A DNA stretch of 64,000 nt from the NCBI GenBank assembly GCA_024398845.1, contig JAKSIM010000006.1, positions 1-64,000 on the forward strand, read 5' to 3'. Origin of the DNA: Fibrobacter sp. (GTDB lineage: Bacteria; Fibrobacterota; Fibrobacteria; Fibrobacterales; Fibrobacteraceae). The notes under the pieces are model-generated. The model made no database searches and had not been told where the DNA came from. It saw only the letters and a program-made list of their open reading frames with translations. Each line of letters opens with the position of its first letter. Positions within the stretch are counted from its first letter, which is position 1. Of this stretch, positions 13,157 through 32,880 are shown piece by piece. The translations under genes were made by a program, and so were the position numbers.

Positions 13157-14881
13157 ATGGAAAGTGCAACCAAAATCATAAACCAGTTTCTGAAGAGCAA
13201 ACTCACGGGTAATGAACTCAAGAGTGAATTGTTCAAGGCGGGAGAAGCCGCTCAACAAGATGGCTGGACCTTTATGGACGCCTCGTTCCAGCTTGGCGGG
13301 TATGCCCGCGACAACGGCCTTTCGGGTGATGAAGTTGAACAAATTCTCCGCCGCGCCTTCTCTGCAGAAAAGAGAGCTGTGGAACGAGAAGAGGCGAAAC
13401 CAGCAGAAGCCCCAAAAGCCGAAACGGTTGCAGCACCTATACAGCCGACCATCATTTCGCCTATGCCAGCAGGCATGTTCTCCATGGAACAAATGCTCGC
13501 CATGGGCCTTGATACGCAGTCCTTGACTTTGCTGCAGAACCACAAGATTGACCCCGAAGCGCTCTCCATTCCATGGCCGAGCCATGACTGGCGTAAGGAC
13601 CTCGCCAAGCTTTTGGAAGCCGTTTTTGAAGAAGATGAAACTATTGAATTCAAGGTTTCAGAAACTCCAAATACCACATCGGAACTCGTTTCAAACATTG
13701 TTGGGCAAGACGCTTCCATCACCAAAATCATGAAGAGCCTTGACAGTCCTGAAGGCGCTTTGATTTGCGTAAACGCAACACAAGGCAGCAAGGACGCCAC
13801 AGACGAAAGCTTCCGTTATCGTTATGTGGTCGTAGACAGCCCTAAGATGCTTTTGGCAAAACAGCTCGCTTATTATAAGGCCTTGAACCTGCCCTGCGCC
13901 GCCATCGTGAATACGCTAGGAGCAAACTCCGCTCAAGCCTGGATTAAAATTGGCGCAAGCAACCTCGATGAGTACAACGACCGCGTAGACTTCCTTTTTA
14001 AAACACTGGAAGAACAGGGCTTTAAAGTTGACCCATCTAACAAGAACCCGAACATGATGGCCCGAATGCCTGGCGTGCTTCGCGGCGGTAAGCAGCAATA
14101 TCTCATTGGCCTGGAACAGGGCGCCAAAAACTTCCAGGAGTGGCGCGAATGGGTGGAATACTCACTTGACGGCAAGCCACTTGTGGAACTCGCTAGCGAT
14201 AGTGAAGAAGCTCCGAAAAAAGACGCAAGCATTATTGAAAACGTTTTACGTACCGGAGAATTTTTCTTGTTCACCGCCCCTCCCAAAAGCGGCAAGTCCT
14301 TTGCTCTTATGGACCTCGGGCTTTCCATTTGCTACGGTGAAGACTGGTTCGGCAACACCACAACCTCGAACGACGTTCTATTTATTAACTACGAACTCAC
14401 GAGATCCGTATTCCTGAACCGTCTGTATTTACTGGGCGGAATTCGAGGCCTCAACGCAAGTACTCCAAAGTTTGGTTTTTTGAATCTGCGCGGCACAGCC
14501 CTCTCGCCGATTGAAACCGCACAGCTCATCGCGAAACGTATTGAAGGCGCCAAGAAAATGGAAAACCATGACTACCGCGTTGTGGTCATAGACCCGATTT
14601 CGGCAGTGTTACACAATCCCAAATCTCTGCGTTTGACAGGCGCCCCGCACCAAATGCTTATGCAAATGATCGACACAATTATCGCCTTAACCGGTTGTGC
14701 CGTGGTAACAGCCTGCAATAACGATGAATTCCCATACCTAAGCTCCCGCGCCGATAGCGTCATGTCGCTCACTCCTGTAGAAGGTAGTCTCGATCTGTAC
14801 CAAATCAACGGTTCATTCCGTGAATTCCCAAAGATGATTGCACGTGAATGTTCTTGGATCTACCCGCGTTTCTTGGTATAA
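13157..14881 (+). CDS. Primase-like domain fused to RepA-like AAA ATPase
   Basis: Protein of 574 residues. The N-terminal 75 residues are helical. Residues about 190-330 resemble an archaeo-eukaryotic primase/RepB-primase fold: RYVVVDS, NTLGANSAQAWIKI, then FKVDPSNKNPNMMARMPGVL, close to the 'NPxRlxRxPG' signature of plasmid and phage primases. The expected SxH motif histidine is not seen (AQAW instead). Residues about 345-560 form a RecA-like ATPase of the RepA type with Walker A APPKSGKS (near 374) and Walker B YRVVVIDPIS (near 475). Family members usually replicate mobile elements, but no other mobile-element gene is nearby. The gene has the same codon style as its neighbours and lies inside an RNA-metabolism operon. 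Confidence 0.75.
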   Translation: MESATKIINQFLKSKLTGNELKSELFKAGEAAQQDGWTFMDASFQLGGYARDNGLSGDEVEQILRRAFSAEKRAVEREEAKPAEAPKAETVAAPIQPTIISPMPAGMFSMEQMLAMGLDTQSLTLLQNHKIDPEALSIPWPSHDWRKDLAKLLEAVFEEDETIEFKVSETPNTTSELVSNIVGQDASITKIMKSLDSPEGALICVNATQGSKDATDESFRYRYVVVDSPKMLLAKQLAYYKALNLPCAAIVNTLGANSAQAWIKIGASNLDEYNDRVDFLFKTLEEQGFKVDPSNKNPNMMARMPGVLRGGKQQYLIGLEQGAKNFQEWREWVEYSLDGKPLVELASDSEEAPKKDASIIENVLRTGEFFLFTAPPKSGKSFALMDLGLSICYGEDWFGNTTTSNDVLFINYELTRSVFLNRLYLLGGIRGLNASTPKFGFLNLRGTALSPIETAQLIAKRIEGAKKMENHDYRVVVIDPISAVLHNPKSLRLTGAPHQMLMQMIDTIIALTGCAVVTACNNDEFPYLSSRADSVMSLTPVEGSLDLYQINGSFREFPKMIARECSWIYPRFLV

Positions 14882-14901
14882 TTTTTTTCAGCAAGTATTA
14901 T

Positions 14902-16239
14902 ATGTACACAAGACAAAGTCGCAACGCAAGTTTAAAGTTCAAAGCCCCCAAAAAACTGGTGGCCAGTAAATTCCGTTCTAAAGCAACTGCAGAAAAGGAA
15001 GAAGCCGTTGCCGTTAAACCCGTTTCCGCAAAAGTTCTCTCCTTTGACGATTTAAAGCGCCAACTGACCGCCTGGACCGAAAACGAAAATATCCCCGGCA
15101 AGTTCCAAGCCTGGTTTACCCAAGACGCAATCGCCGAACACTCAGACTGGCGAATCATCTCGAAAAAACAAGGTGAGCATGAAGTCTTGACACTTGATGC
15201 ACCCGCCAAGGATATGGAAGTTCCCGAAGTCGTCAAGACAATTAATGAACAACTCCACAAAGACCACCTGCGCATTTTCCGCAAGGCCATCCGCCAAATT
15301 TGGTTTAGAGCCACAGGCGACGGTCGATACGCACTTTTAGTCCAAGCCAACTGCCACGGTCGAAATTCCGCGCATGGTTACAAAACCTTCTCGGACTTTG
15401 TCGAACGCAGTTGTCCAGAAATCATCAGCTGCCATCAAATCCAGTGCCAACCCGACAAGACATTTGACCCAGCCTTCAAGCAGTCGGTTCGCGTTGACTG
15501 CAAGAGTAGCTTTGGAAGCGACTTTATGCCTCTCGCCGACACGGGTTTCCATATGCACGTGCTAGATTGGGCACCACGCATCAAGGACGCCTGGCTCGGT
15601 CTTCCCGCACGCATTAAGGACGCCATTCACCCAGCCGTAGGCGATAAACTTTTTGAATTTTATTCCGGTTGTTCTTACGTTAGCGCCTCGCTCGCCAGCT
15701 ATTTTACCCAAGTAGAGGCTTTGGACTGCCGAGAATCGGCCATGCTCTCGACCCGTTACAACAGCAAGAGTCTCGCCGAAGATAAATTACGATTCCATCG
15801 CAGTCAACTAGAAGCAGGTTTCTTCGCCAAGTTTTTCGCCAAAGAAGAAAACGAAGGACGCTGGACCCTTTACTTCAATTTGCCCGCCGGAGAATCCCTT
15901 CCATCAGGTGTGGAACAAGCAGCCGCCCTATCCCGCCCGGAGCGCATTTTGCTACAACTTTCGGATCTTGAAATCGCAGCAAAGGAAATTCGTCATTTCC
16001 GTCGCGAAGGGTACGTTCTGCGTAAAAACATTCCCCTCTACCTTGAACCAGGTAGCGGGAAAATGGAACTTTTGATGCTCTTTGTCCCCGACAGAGCGGG
16101 TCTTTTGAGCCAAAATTCGGCCCAAATGCACAAATCTCGCAACGTTCAACGACCCAAAGAGCGCATAAACACGCAAAAACAGGGAGATATTCCCTATTTT
16201 GTGCAATCAAAGCCTACTTTTAAGCAAAGAAAAGATTAA
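14902..16239 (+). CDS. TrmA/RumA-like class I methyltransferase, catalytic Cys missing
   Basis: Protein of 445 residues from the ATG at 14902. The first 30 residues are basic. The C-terminal half resembles RNA 5-methyluridine methyltransferases. A glycine-rich SAM segment KLFEFYSGCSYVSASLASYF lies near residue 250, and NSKSLAEDKLRFHRS corresponds to the adenine-binding region. At the place of the family's DPPR motif is NLPAGES (near 325), and at the place of the nucleophile strand (VSCNP) is LQLSDLE (near 350). The catalytic cysteine and the DPPR proline-arginine pair are therefore absent. The end is basic and disordered. It may be a non-catalytic RNA-binding relative or have changed chemistry. 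Confidence 0.7.
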   Translation: MYTRQSRNASLKFKAPKKLVASKFRSKATAEKEEAVAVKPVSAKVLSFDDLKRQLTAWTENENIPGKFQAWFTQDAIAEHSDWRIISKKQGEHEVLTLDAPAKDMEVPEVVKTINEQLHKDHLRIFRKAIRQIWFRATGDGRYALLVQANCHGRNSAHGYKTFSDFVERSCPEIISCHQIQCQPDKTFDPAFKQSVRVDCKSSFGSDFMPLADTGFHMHVLDWAPRIKDAWLGLPARIKDAIHPAVGDKLFEFYSGCSYVSASLASYFTQVEALDCRESAMLSTRYNSKSLAEDKLRFHRSQLEAGFFAKFFAKEENEGRWTLYFNLPAGESLPSGVEQAAALSRPERILLQLSDLEIAAKEIRHFRREGYVLRKNIPLYLEPGSGKMELLMLFVPDRAGLLSQNSAQMHKSRNVQRPKERINTQKQGDIPYFVQSKPTFKQRKD

Positions 16240-26439: not shown

Positions 26440-27120
26440 CTACACAAAGTACGGATAAATGTATTCTTCGGCAAGACTATCCAAGCGGGCAAGAACCACC
26501 TTTTTGCAGGCCATGTCGGACTGTTCGTAAATGCGGCGGAGCGTCTCGAGCGAAAAGTTCTGCAGGCGTTTTCGTGACGTGGGCAAGTGGGCTATATGCC
26601 AACCCTCGGGTCGAATTTTCCCGCGTCCCGGAACAAACACGCGGTCAAAACCAAACGCCTCGCCCGCCTCAAACCGACTGGTCAAAAACTCATGGAACTT
26701 GGCGAACATTCCCGTGCATTCGGCGGGCGTGAGTTCCACCTCGTAACCTTCGGGGCAAGCAGCCGCATCGACCACGTCAATGTCCGTCCCCAAGTGGTGG
26801 CGGCTCGCTCCAGGTAATGCAGACCAGGTAAGTATGGCATACATCAGTTCCTCTTCGTCTTGCGGGCGCACCATCACATTGCCCTTATCATCAAGCAAGG
26901 GAAGTTCCCCGCGGGCCTTGCGATTCCAAATGGAGAGTTGCTTTTCGAATGGACGGTACGCCGATTCGATACGCAGTTCAAAACCACACACCTTGGCTGA
27001 TTGCGTTAATTTATCTAAAAAAAGAGTAACTTCACTATCAACAAAGTAACCCGGTTGCGCTTCTACAAGGTTAGGCCGGCCTAAACCATACGGCAAAAAT
27101 TCATCACCATCAAAATTCAC
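26440..27120 (-). CDS. M15-family D,D-carboxypeptidase-like protein (VanY type)
   Basis: Protein of 226 residues. The M15B signature is present: SAYRPFEKQLSIW (near residue 58), SRHHLGTDIDVVDA with zinc-binding His and Asp (near 103) and GWHIAHLP with the third ligand (near 170). Homologues trim D-Ala from murein peptides. There is no signal peptide, which is odd for a D,D-carboxypeptidase and suggests intracellular processing of recycled peptides, matching its M14 neighbour. The GTG start overlaps the ruvC stop (GTGA) and GGAGGGG lies upstream within ruvC. Confidence 0.87.
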   Translation of the reverse strand: MNFDGDEFLPYGLGRPNLVEAQPGYFVDSEVTLFLDKLTQSAKVCGFELRIESAYRPFEKQLSIWNRKARGELPLLDDKGNVMVRPQDEEELMYAILTWSALPGASRHHLGTDIDVVDAAACPEGYEVELTPAECTGMFAKFHEFLTSRFEAGEAFGFDRVFVPGRGKIRPEGWHIAHLPTSRKRLQNFSLETLRRIYEQSDMACKKVVLARLDSLAEEYIYPYFV

Positions 27121-27686
27121 GGGATTACCCCTCCCATTTTTTCAATCAAATCCTTCCACTGTTGCACCGAAGCCTTTTTCTTAGAAGGTTTACCACGCCC
27201 CTTGAGGGCTACCGCAAGCGGAGCCGGCGTACAATGCGTAAAGGCTATGGCAAGGGCATCGGAAGCATCAAGCGGAAGGTCCGAAGATTCTATTCCGAGG
27301 CGAGCAAAAACCATGTTTGCCACCTGTTCCTTGGAAGCGGCTCCATTCCCGGTCACCGATTGCTTTACCACCTTGGGCGGGTACTCGTTAAACGTCATCC
27401 CGTGTTTGCGGCAGGCCACAAGAACGGCCCCGCGAATATGCCCTAATACCAAGGCGCTCTTTGCATTCTTTGCAAAGAACACTCCCTCCATAGCCAAAGC
27501 TTTAGGATGATAACGGTCAATCAATTTTTCAAGTTCGCTCACAATGTGCAGCAATCGATCTTCGAGTGCATGAGTAGCGGGAGCATGAAGCGTACCATAT
27601 TCCAACACCCGAAAAGAACTTCCGGAATTATCTAAAAAAGCATAACCTGTCGTTATGGAACCTGGGTCAATACCTAGAACAACCAT
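27117..27686 (-). CDS. ruvC: Holliday junction resolvase RuvC
   Basis: Cuts Holliday junctions during recombination, together with RuvAB. The protein has 189 residues from the ATG at 27686. The four acidic catalytic residues are present: Asp7 in GIDPGS, Glu67 in MEGVFF, and Asp140/Asp143 in LDASDALAIAFTH. The C-terminus carries an extra basic tail of about 35 residues (KGRGKPSKKKAS). The start lies 4 nt after TATAATTG with no ribosome-binding site. No ruvA or ruvB is adjacent; instead the operon continues into two peptidoglycan peptidase genes. Confidence 0.95.
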   Translation of the reverse strand: MVVLGIDPGSITTGYAFLDNSGSSFRVLEYGTLHAPATHALEDRLLHIVSELEKLIDRYHPKALAMEGVFFAKNAKSALVLGHIRGAVLVACRKHGMTFNEYPPKVVKQSVTGNGAASKEQVANMVFARLGIESSDLPLDASDALAIAFTHCTPAPLAVALKGRGKPSKKKASVQQWKDLIEKMGGVIP

Positions 27687-27690
27687 ATTC

Positions 27691-27698
27691 CAATTATA
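27691..27698 (-). promoter_or_regulatory. TATAATTG box before ruvC
   Basis: Minus-strand TATAATTG (27698-27691), 4 nt before the ruvC ATG and with no Shine-Dalgarno sequence. It fits the leaderless pattern. Confidence 0.5.
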
Positions 27699-27801
27699 AT
27701 TAACTAAAGTCCTCCCGAATTGCCTAAAATTCTTGTTTTTCTGCAATAAATAGTATGTTTTACGCCTCTTTCTTTATTAGATTTCTAATGTGGAGGCTGC
27801 T

Positions 27802-29685
27802 ATGCTAATCGATCAAGAACATGCGGGCATTATGCGTATTAAGACCCATCCCCGTCAATTGGGAATTCCCCTGAGCCGTTGGGGTCGTAACCTTATTGCT
27901 TGTTGCCCGTTCCATTCTCCCGAAGAGACGTCCCTGTTCTTTTACGACGCACTGGGATATTGGCGTTATCGCTGTCTGCAATGCGGTAGCGAAGGTGACC
28001 TGATTGAATTTGTAATGCGCAGCCGTTTCAACGGCATGGAAGAACCCCAGGCCCGTAATGAAGCCATTGAATTTTTAGGAGCCCAAGAAGTAGAGCAGCA
28101 GGAATCCCTGCAAGATGAACACCCCTGGATCAAGGAAATCGGCGGTGAAAAATCTCGCGTTCTCGAAAGTTTTGTAAGATACTGCCATTGGGCTGCTTGT
28201 AAAAGTCCTTCTTCCGCGGAATTTCTTGAAAAGCGCGGTTGGAGTATTGGTCAAGCCCAGCTTTACGGTTTGGGCTATTACAGCGGCGATCCAGACCCAT
28301 TTGTAAGCTACTGTATGCTCTCGGGTATCGAGCGCCATCAAATCAGTTTTTATTTGGATAACTTGGAAGCCTACCACGAACCCCGTATTACCATCCCGGC
28401 TCGCAATTCCAAGGGCCTCATCCATTCCGTTTACGGACGTCTTATTGACGACGACTGCAAGAGCCACGCCTACATTTCGTACGCCTCCGGTCCAAGCGAC
28501 ATTCCGTTCAATATCCAACCCGAAAACGAAAAACCCGTGATTGTGGAAGGATTCTTTGACGCCTTGACCGCAGATCTCGCCGGTATCCCCGGTGTGGTTT
28601 CAACCATGTACCAGGAAGTCTCCTTGAGCCACTTGTACAAGCTCAAAGCCTGCGGTGCAGAATCGGTCACCATTATTCTTCGCCGGGAAGCCAACCGTCG
28701 CGATCAGGAACAGCGCATCCAGCACTACCTGAAAATGGCGGAATCCCTGAACTTGAAGTTCAAATCCATTGTTCTTCCAAAAGACGAAACTATTGACCAG
28801 GTCGTTCGAAACAATGGAGCCGACGCGCTCATCTCGCTCATTGAGCAGACCGAAGAAGACACCATGCATACGCATCGTCGTACCATGCTGTTGCAAGACA
28901 TCAAGGAAAACTTCGACAACGCCATGGGTTGCCCGTCCGATGTGAGCGTAGGTTACTCCTTGAGCACCTTCCCGAAACTCACCAAAGAAATCGACGGCAT
29001 TCAATCTGGCTGTTTTTACGTTTCATCGAGCCCGTTTGGTTTAAAAACAACTTTGCTCTCGAGCATTTCGCTCGACATGCTTCAAAGCAACCCGAAGCTC
29101 AAACTCATTTACGTGGCACTTGAAACACCTCGACGTCAAATTTTTGACCGAATGGTGGCCATGATGATTGGAGAATCCGTACTGACGGTTCGCAAGCAAA
29201 ACGAATCCGAAGAAATAAACCAGAGAATTCTGGAAGCCACTCGCGAATTGATGGGCTACGTGCGCAACAACCGCCTTGAAATTTGGGAAGACACTCCGGC
29301 ATTTGACAGCACCGAATTGATGAACACCCTCAAGGACGAGCAAAAGGAACATCCGGACCTCGTCGTGGTTATCGATGGCATTGACCACTTGAAAATTTCG
29401 GACCACGCAGACCTCACCGACGTTCACGAACGACGTTCTTCCGTTATGTTAGACTTGTACAAGGCTCTTGATATTCCGCTTTTCTTAGGAGCAGAACTCA
29501 TTGATTCCGAAAACGGGCTCATTGGGCCTAGAGCCTACCTCCGCGATTCCGACGCCATTTACTGGTTAGAATCTAAGGGCGGGAACCTCTTCTTGACAGT
29601 CAATTCCAAACGACTCGGCAGCAACAACCTTTACAAGGGAACGCTCTACATGGACCCTGAATCGAATAAGATGCAGGAAGCCTAA
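27802..29685 (+). CDS. CHC2 zinc finger / Toprim / DnaB-like helicase protein with eroded active sites
   Basis: Protein of 627 residues starting at the ATG at 27802 after GTGGAGG. Residues 30-72 form a CHC2 zinc finger as in DnaG (Cys35, His38, Cys58, Cys61). Residues about 245-330 form a Toprim domain with VIVEG intact, but the DxD strand reads ILRREANRR, lacking both Asp residues. Residues about 375-620 form a DnaB/RecA-like ATPase: the P-loop reads SSPFGLKTT (second Gly missing, Lys and Thr kept), the Walker B is VVVIDGIDH and LETPRRQIFDRM matches a DnaB motif. The layout is that of T7 gp4 or Twinkle-type primase-helicases. Cell role unknown. Its stop overlaps the start of a glycosyltransferase gene (TAATG). 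Confidence 0.8.
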   Translation: MLIDQEHAGIMRIKTHPRQLGIPLSRWGRNLIACCPFHSPEETSLFFYDALGYWRYRCLQCGSEGDLIEFVMRSRFNGMEEPQARNEAIEFLGAQEVEQQESLQDEHPWIKEIGGEKSRVLESFVRYCHWAACKSPSSAEFLEKRGWSIGQAQLYGLGYYSGDPDPFVSYCMLSGIERHQISFYLDNLEAYHEPRITIPARNSKGLIHSVYGRLIDDDCKSHAYISYASGPSDIPFNIQPENEKPVIVEGFFDALTADLAGIPGVVSTMYQEVSLSHLYKLKACGAESVTIILRREANRRDQEQRIQHYLKMAESLNLKFKSIVLPKDETIDQVVRNNGADALISLIEQTEEDTMHTHRRTMLLQDIKENFDNAMGCPSDVSVGYSLSTFPKLTKEIDGIQSGCFYVSSSPFGLKTTLLSSISLDMLQSNPKLKLIYVALETPRRQIFDRMVAMMIGESVLTVRKQNESEEINQRILEATRELMGYVRNNRLEIWEDTPAFDSTELMNTLKDEQKEHPDLVVVIDGIDHLKISDHADLTDVHERRSSVMLDLYKALDIPLFLGAELIDSENGLIGPRAYLRDSDAIYWLESKGGNLFLTVNSKRLGSNNLYKGTLYMDPESNKMQEA

Positions 29686-30893
29686 TGCCCAGCGGAAACA
29701 AGCCGTTTACCATCGTTGATTTGAACAACTTCTGGAGCCCCTCCGGAGGAGGCGTGCGCAGGTACCATCTTCAAAAGATGGCCTACTACGAATCTCTGTG
29801 CAAGCAAAACAACCAGCAGAAAGCCCTGCTGGTATTCGTGATGCCCGATAGCAAGACCTATACAGAAATCAAAAGCGACAGTCTTGTCATTGAGCACGTA
29901 GAGGCGTTCAAGTTCCCTGGTAATTGGGAGTACCGCTTTATTTGGAAGCGATCTCAAGTGGAACCCGTACTCGCAAAATACACACCTCAAATTATTGAGG
30001 TGGGCTCCCCCTACATTTTGCCTACAGTTGTCCGACATGCCGCCAAAAAAGTTTCGCCAAATTCCAAGTTGGTTGGATTTTGGCACGCTGACTTCCCCGT
30101 GACATACGTGGGGCGTCCAGTCGCTAAAAAAGTTGGCGCAGGCATAGGCACTTTTTGTCGCAAAGAAGCTTTCTGGTACGCCCGCAAGGAATTCAAGGAT
30201 TTTGATTGCATACAAGCGTCCTCCAAAGAGGTTATGGCGAGGCTTAAAAAGAACAACCTGCCGGACCCTCGCTGGATTCCACTCGGTTGCGACATCCACA
30301 TGTTCGCCCCCTCCAAGCGCGACGAAAATTTGGTGCGGGAACTCAAAGCAGGAAATCCCGAGCGCCTAACGATGTTCTTCCCGCATAGGCACTGTAAGGA
30401 AAAAGGCATAGATCTGGTTTTGGACGCCTACGACATTTTAACCGAAAAACTCGGACACGAACCAGCCATTGTTTTCGCAGGGACTGGTCCATCTCTCCCA
30501 GCCGTGCAAGAAACTGCATCAAAGTACACGCACGTACGCTACATTGGTTTTGTCAATTCTATTGACGAGATGGCTCGCTATTATGCCAGCGTCGATTTGG
30601 GTCTCGCCCTCTCGGGTTGGGAAACATTCGGTCTTTCCATTCTCGAAAGCATGGCCAGCGGAAATGCTCAAGTCGGAGCGAACGCCGGTGCCGCCTTTGA
30701 GCACGTCACCGAATCCAAGGCAGGTATTGTTTTAAATGAGCGCACCCCACAAGCTCTTGCCAACGCCATTGTAGAATTATACCATTCGGACATGCAAGCC
30801 ATGAAGCAAAATGCTCGCGCCTACGCAGAGAATTACAGTTGGGAAGATTGCTTTAAAAGACAATTTGAATTGTATAAAGAATTAACGAGATAA
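29685..30893 (+). CDS. GT4-family glycosyltransferase
   Basis: Protein of 402 residues with a GT-B fold. The N-terminal domain starts FTIVDLNNFWSPSGGGVRRY. The C-terminal donor domain has FFPHRHCKEKGIDLVLDAYD and the retaining motif LALSGWETFGLSILESMASG (E-x7-E type, near residue 308). The start overlaps the preceding stop codon and the next gene begins 4 nt past its own stop, so it is translated from a three-gene operon. Donor and acceptor sugars cannot be told from sequence. Confidence 0.9.
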   Translation: MPSGNKPFTIVDLNNFWSPSGGGVRRYHLQKMAYYESLCKQNNQQKALLVFVMPDSKTYTEIKSDSLVIEHVEAFKFPGNWEYRFIWKRSQVEPVLAKYTPQIIEVGSPYILPTVVRHAAKKVSPNSKLVGFWHADFPVTYVGRPVAKKVGAGIGTFCRKEAFWYARKEFKDFDCIQASSKEVMARLKKNNLPDPRWIPLGCDIHMFAPSKRDENLVRELKAGNPERLTMFFPHRHCKEKGIDLVLDAYDILTEKLGHEPAIVFAGTGPSLPAVQETASKYTHVRYIGFVNSIDEMARYYASVDLGLALSGWETFGLSILESMASGNAQVGANAGAAFEHVTESKAGIVLNERTPQALANAIVELYHSDMQAMKQNARAYAENYSWEDCFKRQFELYKELTR

Positions 30894-30897
30894 ACCA

Positions 30898-32880
30898 ATG
30901 AAATTGTTTGTAAAAGAACTTGTCGAAAAAATCGCAAGCTACTTGTCGCCTTTTAAAAGACTTTTATTTATTTCGCTCGCCGCCTGGATTATTCACGCTT
31001 GCTTGCGCGCCTTTTTACTGTTCCGCGTAAACCCCTATGGATTTCCATTTGTAAGCAAGCCGGACTGGTACATTTTCCATGCTATATGCTTTGATTTTAT
31101 TTGGATTTGCAATGCTCTTGTTATTTTCGCGATTATCGGTGGAGCGCTCAATCGCCTTACCAATGGTAAAAAAATCAACCTCAAAATTTCAACCATCGTT
31201 ACCGTCATTTACGCGGCCTTCCATTCTGTTCTTTTATTCCTCACATATCTCGACCACGAGCTATTGCGCTTTTTAGGTTGTCACTTATCCATAGGCTTGG
31301 TAAGCACCTACAAGGACACATCTTCTGTTATGATGTTTGGCGACTATTCCGCCAACGACAATTCCATCCCGTTCATCCATTTCTTTATTTTCGCTTTACT
31401 CTTGCCCGCCACCTATGGCGTTTACCGCTTTATTAAGTCGCACAAGTTCTCTTTGAAAAAATGCATTATATCTATGCTCTGCTTTTACGTGGCCTCGTAT
31501 GCCTTTGTCAATTTCATTTGGACTGGCAATGCTCGCGCCACAAAACTCCGCCCAGTAATAGCGCTTTTATATAATGAAATTTTTGAATCCCACAAAAAGA
31601 ACGAAATTTCTAACGAGCAGTTGCAGCAATTCGCCAAAACTTACCAAAATCTTTGGCAAAAAGTGGAAGGCGATTCCCTGTGGCATTTTTCAAGCGAAGG
31701 TCCCGGTGACAAGATGCCGCTTTACCGCATCCCCACTCAAGAACTTCTCCAGAGCGAAAAGTTGCAAGCACAACGTCTCCAAAAGCCAAACTTCATTCTC
31801 GTATTCATGGAATCGCACCGCGGTATGAATGTGGGATTTTTGAATCCCGATTTAAAACCGTCACCAACCCCTTACTACGATTCTATTGCGACCTACTCTC
31901 GCATTTGGGAACGAATGCACACAAGCGGGCTTCCAACCACAGGTGGAGTTTTATCGACCCACATTGGCATACCACACCACTCCACGCTCGCTCAGGCCAC
32001 AGACCTCGCCCATGTCACACTCCCTAGCTTTGCCTCCGTTTTAACGGATTCCGGTTACACAACGCATTACTTTTCGGCAGCAGACCCCGCCTGGGATAAT
32101 CTTGGTGTTTGGATGTCAAAGTGGTACAGCGCCCAGCATTACGACCGCAATCACGAGGACGACTCCACATTCTTTGACCACGCTATTTCGTACGTGAATG
32201 ACACTTTGGCCAAGCAAGAAAAACCATTCCTCGCCACCCTCATGACGCGTTCCAATCATTATCCCTTTAACTTTGCCGCAGGCATGAGCGACGAAGAAAA
32301 GCAAAAGCCGCATACAGAACGCATCAAGTACACCATGAATTACGCCGACCGACAACTCGCCCGGTTCATGCGTTCCATCGAGAAAAAAGATTGGTTCCAA
32401 AACACCTACGTCATTATCATGGCAGACCACGGATTCCCTCTAGGCGAAAACGGAATTTCCACAATGAACGGCGGTGGATTCTCGAACGCCACCTGGATTC
32501 CATTCCTCATTTACGGAAAAGGCATTGAAGTCGGGCGAGACACCGCAACTGCCGCCCAAATTGACATCGCCCCGACGATTCTGGAACTTGCGGGTATTGC
32601 AGTACCGAACATTTTTATGGGCCACAACCTGCTTCGCGGTTATGGCGAAGGACTCTCTCTGGGCGCATACCTCAACGCAGCCGCCGTAGGTTACAACGGC
32701 TTACGCCTAATTGAAAAATATCCACTCGGAAATCACGATGTAGACGGCCTTTTTGCCGAAGAAGACACCCACCAGAAAAACAATCTCGCCGAGAGTCTCG
32801 TCGAAGAAGCGCGCAAGCATACCGAATTGCTAGACTCCCTCATTCGACTTTCTGATTACACGTTAGAAAAAGGAATTTAA
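30898..32880 (+). CDS. LtaS-like membrane phosphoglycerol/phosphoethanolamine transferase
   Basis: Protein of 660 residues. About five membrane helices lie in residues 15-210, followed by a periplasmic sulfatase/alkaline-phosphatase domain. Metal ligands are recognisable: ILVFMESHRGMN (near 300), the Thr nucleophile region TSGLPTTGGVLS (near 342) and MADHGFPLGENG (near 508). The layout matches LtaS, MdoB and EptA-type enzymes that move a phospho-headgroup from a lipid to a glycan or lipid A. Here it follows a GT4 gene in the surface-glycan locus, so decoration of that glycan is the likely job. Confidence 0.85.
   Translation: MKLFVKELVEKIASYLSPFKRLLFISLAAWIIHACLRAFLLFRVNPYGFPFVSKPDWYIFHAICFDFIWICNALVIFAIIGGALNRLTNGKKINLKISTIVTVIYAAFHSVLLFLTYLDHELLRFLGCHLSIGLVSTYKDTSSVMMFGDYSANDNSIPFIHFFIFALLLPATYGVYRFIKSHKFSLKKCIISMLCFYVASYAFVNFIWTGNARATKLRPVIALLYNEIFESHKKNEISNEQLQQFAKTYQNLWQKVEGDSLWHFSSEGPGDKMPLYRIPTQELLQSEKLQAQRLQKPNFILVFMESHRGMNVGFLNPDLKPSPTPYYDSIATYSRIWERMHTSGLPTTGGVLSTHIGIPHHSTLAQATDLAHVTLPSFASVLTDSGYTTHYFSAADPAWDNLGVWMSKWYSAQHYDRNHEDDSTFFDHAISYVNDTLAKQEKPFLATLMTRSNHYPFNFAAGMSDEEKQKPHTERIKYTMNYADRQLARFMRSIEKKDWFQNTYVIIMADHGFPLGENGISTMNGGGFSNATWIPFLIYGKGIEVGRDTATAAQIDIAPTILELAGIAVPNIFMGHNLLRGYGEGLSLGAYLNAAAVGYNGLRLIEKYPLGNHDVDGLFAEEDTHQKNNLAESLVEEARKHTELLDSLIRLSDYTLEKGI

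Follow-up and report, generated by a model that had tools for sequence, protein, structure and literature searches.

The window analysed here, a 64,000-nucleotide stretch of a Fibrobacter sp. genome, carries a gene, here called Q, for a relative of the T7 gp4/Twinkle primase-helicases. Judged from the aligned sequences, the primase site and the canonical P-loop glycine have been lost in every Q orthologue counted; the gene is under strong purifying selection and coexists with normal DnaG, DnaB, DciA and PriA genes. We tentatively read Q as a non-priming nucleic-acid-binding scaffold or regulator that would act on the chromosome, perhaps forming a ring.

Gene and domain architecture

The Q frame (27790-29685, + strand) runs for 631 codons without a stop. 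ATG 27802 is the likely start, giving 627 aa, and the sole stop reported in the frame (in genome G118) falls immediately upstream of this ATG. The features of the gene are as follows.

27792..27796, + strand: GGAGG, ribosome-binding-site-like, 5 bases before ATG 27802 (sequence)
27802..29685, + strand: Q, 627-aa degenerate primase-helicase with CHC2, DnaG core, Toprim and DnaB-like RecA domains (ORF, profile and structure searches)
27847..28071, + strand: CHC2 zinc ribbon, residues 16-90, ligands C35, H38, C58 and C61 (Pfam scan, residue counts)
28144..28521, + strand: N-terminal half of the DnaG RNA-polymerase core, residues 115-240 (profile-profile alignment, Aquifex DnaG match)
28522..28851, + strand: Toprim domain, residues 241-350 (profile-profile alignment, residue counts)
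28681..28689, + strand: former DxD site, now RRE, residues 294-296 (residue counts, profile-profile alignment)
28972..29682, + strand: DnaB-type RecA domain, residues 391-627 (Pfam scan, structure alignment)
29026..29049, + strand: atypical P-loop SSPFGLKT, residues 409-416 (residue counts)
29362..29379, + strand: Walker B VVVIDG, including D525 (residue counts)

The Pfam scan matched CHC2 at E=1.8e-9, DnaB_C at 8e-6 (slightly under the Pfam cut-off, 25.9 vs 27 bits) and, weakly, Toprim_4 at 0.06; it gave no match to the DnaB N-terminal domain in Q. The NCBIfam dnaG model matched ORF residues 26-363 at 1.2e-24, with 86.9 bits lying far below its cut-off of 283.6, and the curated DnaB model gave 22.2 bits, below its cut-off of 385.25. 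HHalign of Q with a DnaG profile of the phylum (36 rows/genomes) gave a probability of 99.7 and E=2.9e-25 over residues 22-352, with the DGD of DnaG aligned opposite RRE.

An AlphaFold2 monomer model made from 44 sequences had a pLDDT of 76.6 and a pTM of 0.52, so that the relative placement of its domains is unreliable. The top PDB matches of this model by Foldseek were human Twinkle (8.6e-16), T7 gp4 (4e-14) and Aquifex DnaG (1.4e-13). VIA-align gave Z 26.7 for DnaB over Q 356-627 (rmsd 2.6, 261 aligned), Z 25.8 for the G40P C-terminal domain against the RecA-fold domain, Z 22.8 for T7 gp4 over Q 115-627, where the rmsd of 16.4 reflects shifted domains, and Z 20.3 for Aquifex DnaG over Q 46-360. 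A CHC2 domain, an RNA-polymerase/Toprim core and a RecA domain lie in one chain, as in the gp4/Twinkle group. The domain order put forward in the initial annotation is borne out by the profile, Foldseek and VIA-align matches, and the structure prediction that it proposed as a check returned Twinkle, T7 gp4, DnaG and DnaB.

Residues kept and lost

Residues were counted in 89 distinct Q orthologues, which are open frames of at least 600 aa by construction. The zinc ligands C35, H38, C58 and C61, which match those of DnaG CHC2, are kept in 89/89, and so is the Walker-B aspartate D525; the initial annotation had read both sites as retained. It had likewise read the Toprim DxD as RRE, which in the window is R294-R295-E296, and no orthologue has a DxD: the triplets at this position are RRE (69), RKE (8), RRD (6) and others (six). 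The Toprim catalytic glutamate, E249 in the window, is found in 76 orthologues (Gln in 11, Ser in 1, Pro in 1), and D332, close to the later acidic motif of DnaG, in 86. Since the metals of DnaG-type primases are coordinated by DxD, according to excerpts of PMC4538821 and PMC5517523, and DxD is absent from all orthologues, primase activity of Q is very unlikely.

The P-loop of the window, SSPFGLKT, has no glycine preceding the lysine, as had been noticed at the outset, and this glycine is missing from all 89 sequences, none of which has the canonical GK[ST]; the losses first read in one sequence are therefore consistent among the aligned orthologues. The lysine is present in 88/89, the next Thr/Ser in 88/89 and both in 87. 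The DnaB-type glutamate E441 is kept in 81 (Asp in 7, Lys in 1) and Arg 604, which we take to lie close to the arginine finger of DnaB, in 80. The initial claim that catalysis is lost stands for the primase site but is weakened for ATP use by the retained lysine and Thr/Ser. Individual genera show further P-loop losses: Ser replaces the lysine in L041 (g2), Gly replaces the threonine in L042 (g5), and L048/L049 (g8/g9) have no glycine anywhere in the loop.

Mean pairwise identity falls from 0.85 in CHC2, the most conserved of the four domains, through 0.80 in the N-terminal half of the DnaG core and 0.73 in Toprim to 0.67 in RecA, the least conserved. Net charge is negative in all five segments computed, which does not favour a broad affinity of Q for nucleic acids. 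R145, aligned to the arginine of DnaG YLxxRG, is Arg in 87/89 and Lys in 2. The DnaG-family arginine of T7 gp4, R84, is described in an excerpt of PMC9198812 as required for ssDNA binding and not for hexamer formation; by analogy, we infer that R145 may be its equivalent.

Selection and canonical replication genes

Of 238 pairs, 60 were sampled, and over the 58 of them that were usable the median dN/dS of Q was 0.043, a rough ratio because dS is about 1 and near saturation; by domain it was 0.026 for CHC2, 0.022 for the N-terminal half of the core, and 0.055 for both Toprim and RecA. This is strong purifying selection, and a decaying pseudogene was rejected on this ground. A dN/dS of about 0.04 together with the loss of catalytic sites fits the structural or regulatory role suggested in the initial annotation. 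Of 14 genomes compared with that of the window, 11 were closer to it in Q than in DnaG, which carries a variable C-terminal part, and three (G001, G093, G108) were less close in Q.

The separate canonical DnaG and DnaB looked for on the strength of the initial annotation both lie elsewhere in the window genome, scoring 396 and 487 bits, each over its cut-off, and canonical DnaG was found in 15/15 Q-bearing genomes searched. A replacement of the helicase loader by Q was rejected, as DciA was found in genomes with and without Q alike (24/26; missed in G074 and G130), and so was a replacement in replication restart, as PriA was over cut-off in 26/26, with and without Q.

A separate DnaG-like protein of ~355 aa with a DxD-like motif is encoded at L008 1381-2460 (contig C67 of the window's own genome; LDKDDAG) and at L231 1495-2556 (FDQDEPG), and dnaG-model matches of similar size, below cut-off, occur in other Fibrobacteraceae. 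The gene beside it in both genomes read is presumably murB.

Distribution

Full-length Q was called present at E of at most 1e-100 in 150 genomes of the phylum, the kinship of eight non-matching genomes being inferred from listing order. It was found in 67/67 genomes of the genus, 15/27 other genomes of the family and 0/56 elsewhere in the phylum. The 12 family genomes lacking Q are ten of g7, one of g11 and one of g3 (71% complete); the window genome assembly is itself incomplete (83% complete). A profile search of 33 genomes found no full-length relative, and the matches in 27 of them were mostly to the CHC2 part of DnaG-like proteins. A scan of a species-genome collection, seeded by short peptides so that distant relatives could escape, gave 71 loci, all labelled Fibrobacter, Fibrobacteraceae, Fibrobacterales, Fibrobacteria or Fibrobacteres; the nearest named ones (Fibrobacter/Fibrobacteraceae) have 86-88% protein identity. 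The cultured strain F. intestinalis ATCC 43854 also has a Q gene (locus L118). The Q tree separates genera as expected. One genome, G123, has two full-length copies (contigs C11 and C15; 82% and 76% identity to that of the window) and is perhaps a mixed bin.

The short-peptide-seeded scan found no relative on viral contigs. Phage (190) and plasmid (111) records were matched, each over less than 80% of the Q length. Those listed, 40 in number, span Q residues 25-26 to 328-434, and most are annotated DNA primase. Prophage or plasmid cargo was rejected as an account of Q on these grounds.

Full-text searches of open-licence papers listed no title describing the Q protein. The fold and domain order are already known; the combination of a kept zinc ribbon with a primase site and P-loop altered in every orthologue examined, in a bacterial core gene, was not recognisable among the papers listed.

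Neighbouring genes

The genes flanking Q are the following.

27117..27746, - strand: ruvC, adjacent divergent neighbour of Q (Pfam, locus comparison)
29683..29687, + strand: TAATG stop/start overlap of Q with GT (sequence)
29685..30893, + strand: GT4-type glycosyltransferase (GT), directly after Q (Pfam, locus comparison)

GT lies directly 3′ of Q in 91/91 orthologous loci checked (some genomes counted twice) and is the only neighbour present in every one; no replication gene is. At least one candidate GT start falls within -38 to +24 of the Q stop in 89/89 loci, and in 59 of these there is a candidate that shares 1 or 4 bases with the stop. The ruvC gene adjoins Q divergently in 85/91 loci, is 3.9 kb off in two (one genome) and was not found at the four g8/g9 loci. 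In g8/g9, the deepest genera, Q and GT are inverted, beside a CDP-alcohol phosphatidyltransferase gene. In the window a gene for a sulfatase-domain protein (30898-32880, + strand) comes after GT; a sulfatase-like gene holds this place in some of the related loci and not in others, which makes the distal end of the cluster variable. Rfam gave no match to a structured RNA in the window, and promoter and terminator scans gave no clear excess over shuffles.

Close relatives of GT also occur without Q, in 6/10 g7 genomes, in g11 (where a contig end cuts GT), in 1/5 f3 genomes and in the sole f5 genome, which makes GT independent of Q; the other four g7 genomes have weak GT matches only. An RNase H1-like gene precedes GT in 7/7 g7/g11 loci read (L159-L164, L167), two of which were scanned with Pfam. 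A role of Q as an RNase H1 substitute was rejected, as RNase H was found in most Q-bearing genomes too (49/61 overall, a lower bound, since G131 and G133 gave no hit although the RNase H1-like frame is present at their loci, L161 and L159 respectively).

The upstream proteins P13 and P463

About 13 kb upstream of Q, in the same long-conserved block, lies P13, which is followed by P463.

13157..14881, + strand: P13, AEP-type primase domain and AAA_25 ATPase (profile searches, alignment)
14848-16239, + strand: P463, gene after P13, relative of RumA-type RNA m5U methyltransferases (PDB 5xj1 and 1uwv matches)

P13 matches the phage primase family phrog_2597 at 2.9e-71 and has 29.6-34.6% identity to phage proteins among the matches listed (15 of 49). 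In an alignment of 14 genomes with six phage relatives, the histidine of motif II is Gln in 14/14, the second acid of motif I is Pro, Asn, Lys or Arg in 14/14, and Walker A and B are intact. The active AEP PolpTN2 has Gln in motif II, according to an excerpt of PMC5862659, so this change alone is no proof of inactivity; with the second acid of motif I also lost, P13 is probably primase-dead.

P13 was found in 14/14 Q-bearing and 0/5 Q-lacking family genomes tested, the latter (four g7, one g11) being assemblies 73-94% complete, and it occurs without Q in two genomes of the sister family f2. In the DnaG tree g8 and g9, which have both Q and P13, branch before a nested g7+g11 clade that has neither (100/100 support), so a single shared loss is the simplest account. 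Presence of Q and P13 changes three times in all on this tree, one change coming from the incomplete g3 genome. The block was not simply lost, since P463 (kept in 9/10 g7/g11 genomes) and GT mostly survive there, dispersed. As this is one event, and Q and P13 share one long-conserved block, a functional coupling of the two is no more than suggested. The initial annotation had counted P13 as a second unusual primase-helicase relative, in keeping with its altered primase motifs and its absence from the same clade as Q.

P463 itself matches PDB 5xj1 (SP_1029) at E=3e-15 and RumA 1uwv at 4e-10. Its ISCN-motif cysteine is absent in 10/10 aligned orthologues and DPPR reads NPPxG or similar; it is a probable dead methyltransferase and would be a third likely pseudoenzyme near Q.

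Comparison with known systems

T7 gp4 has the same order of zinc ribbon, RNA-polymerase domain and RecA helicase in a single chain; unlike gp4, Q has neither the Toprim DxD nor a canonical Walker A, and is a chromosomal core gene alongside normal DnaG and DnaB. Metazoan Twinkle, a gp4-like protein whose primase function is lost, differs in another way: human Twinkle is described in an excerpt of PMC3610141 as a working helicase without the zinc cysteines, so the pattern of loss is opposite to that of Q, where the zinc ligands are universal and the P-loop is altered. Bacterial DnaG shares CHC2, the N-terminal subdomain and Toprim with Q, but in Q the DxD is gone and RecA replaces the helicase-binding C-terminal domain of DnaG. 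The C-terminal domain of DnaB and G40P has the RecA fold of Q, whose P-loop is altered and which falls far below the cut-off of the DnaB model. Archaeal DnaG, an exosome subunit, is a Toprim protein that is related to primases and also serves outside replication; in the domain description excerpted from PMC4227792 it has N-terminal, Toprim and C-terminal domains and lacks CHC2 and RecA.

Possible roles of Q

In the reading that we hold tentatively, Q would have descended from a T7 gp4/Twinkle-type primase-helicase and would now be a primase-dead pseudoenzyme fixed in the Fibrobacteraceae chromosome. It may still bind single-stranded or primed nucleic acid through its zinc ribbon and DnaG core, may assemble a DnaB-like ring, and would then scaffold or regulate, without catalysis, at intermediates of replication or repair; more weakly, it might share one pathway with P13. 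What favours such a role is that conservation is highest in the zinc ribbon and in the DnaG subdomain next to it rather than in the motor. We count against it that the link to P13 is one shared absence, seen partly in incomplete assemblies, that the sole universal neighbour is a glycosyltransferase, and that P13 is found without Q in f2. An extended form of the same reading, in which Q and P13, unrelated and both without primase sites, would act together as a non-catalytic 'pseudo-primosome', their rings marking or holding chromosomal priming or repair sites for the normal DnaG/DnaB machinery, as a Fibrobacteraceae-only pathway lost as a unit in g7/g11, seems to us quite improbable.

With the P-loop lysine and Thr/Ser, Walker-B aspartate, E441 and Arg 604 kept at the frequencies given above, and with human Twinkle as the top structural match, Q could be Twinkle-like, its primase dead and its RecA ring hydrolysing NTP via PFGLK[TS] to translocate on or unwind DNA; an excerpt of PMC3610141 describes animal Twinkle as a helicase without priming. 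As the P-loop Lys/Thr, Walker-B aspartate and glutamate are kept in most of the genus, a motor is possible there. We nonetheless consider this unlikely, because the glycine before the lysine is missing in every orthologue, RecA is the least conserved domain, and the further breakage of the P-loop in g2, g5, g8 and g9 (L041, L042, L048/L049) makes unwinding an unlikely conserved job. That Q still makes primers by way of an unusual metal site is barely credible: the frequent retention of E249 and D332 would allow it, but the residue triplet that is mostly RRE replaces the metal-coordinating DxD throughout and E249 is itself Gln, Ser or Pro in 13 sequences.

The constancy of GT, which follows Q even in g8/g9 with their different surroundings and whose candidate start so often overlaps the Q stop, would instead suit a regulator that binds nucleic acid, works in RNA or envelope biology and is coupled to GT, translated from the same message, and archaeal DnaG offers a Toprim protein that binds RNA in the exosome (excerpt of PMC4227792). 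Against this stand the close GT relatives in genomes without Q and the RNase H1-like gene before GT in seven g7/g11 loci, by which a nucleic-acid gene at that place may be incidental; we regard this reading as distinctly unlikely. Domestication of a phage replication protein that would now be turned against phages, either as a decoy primase-helicase or as a dominant-negative one, would explain the many phage primase-helicases among the fold matches of Q and the clear phage relatives of P13, at about 30-35% identity. Defence genes are usually patchy in distribution, though, and Q is in every sampled genome of its genus, with a tree that separates genera as expected, a low dN/dS, no relative on viral contigs in the peptide scan and no phage or plasmid record over 80% of its length. 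The PADLOC matches are N-terminal only, to RT_UG29 (residues 18-161) and RTasDnaG-like (residues 18-75), with E up to 1, and an anti-phage role is very improbable.

Significance

As a rule, a replication protein is retained for its chemistry. Here the metal site of primer synthesis is missing from every relative examined, yet within the main group of genera Q is conserved to about the same degree as the true primase. The Q gene should not be annotated DNA primase. Q is a natural case of separation of function: what remains of a primase-helicase once priming is gone should reveal whether site recognition, loading, scaffolding or another non-catalytic job merits keeping such a protein. The family also offers a ready comparison, because P13 is present or absent together with Q in those of its genomes that were tested and a sister clade lacks both.
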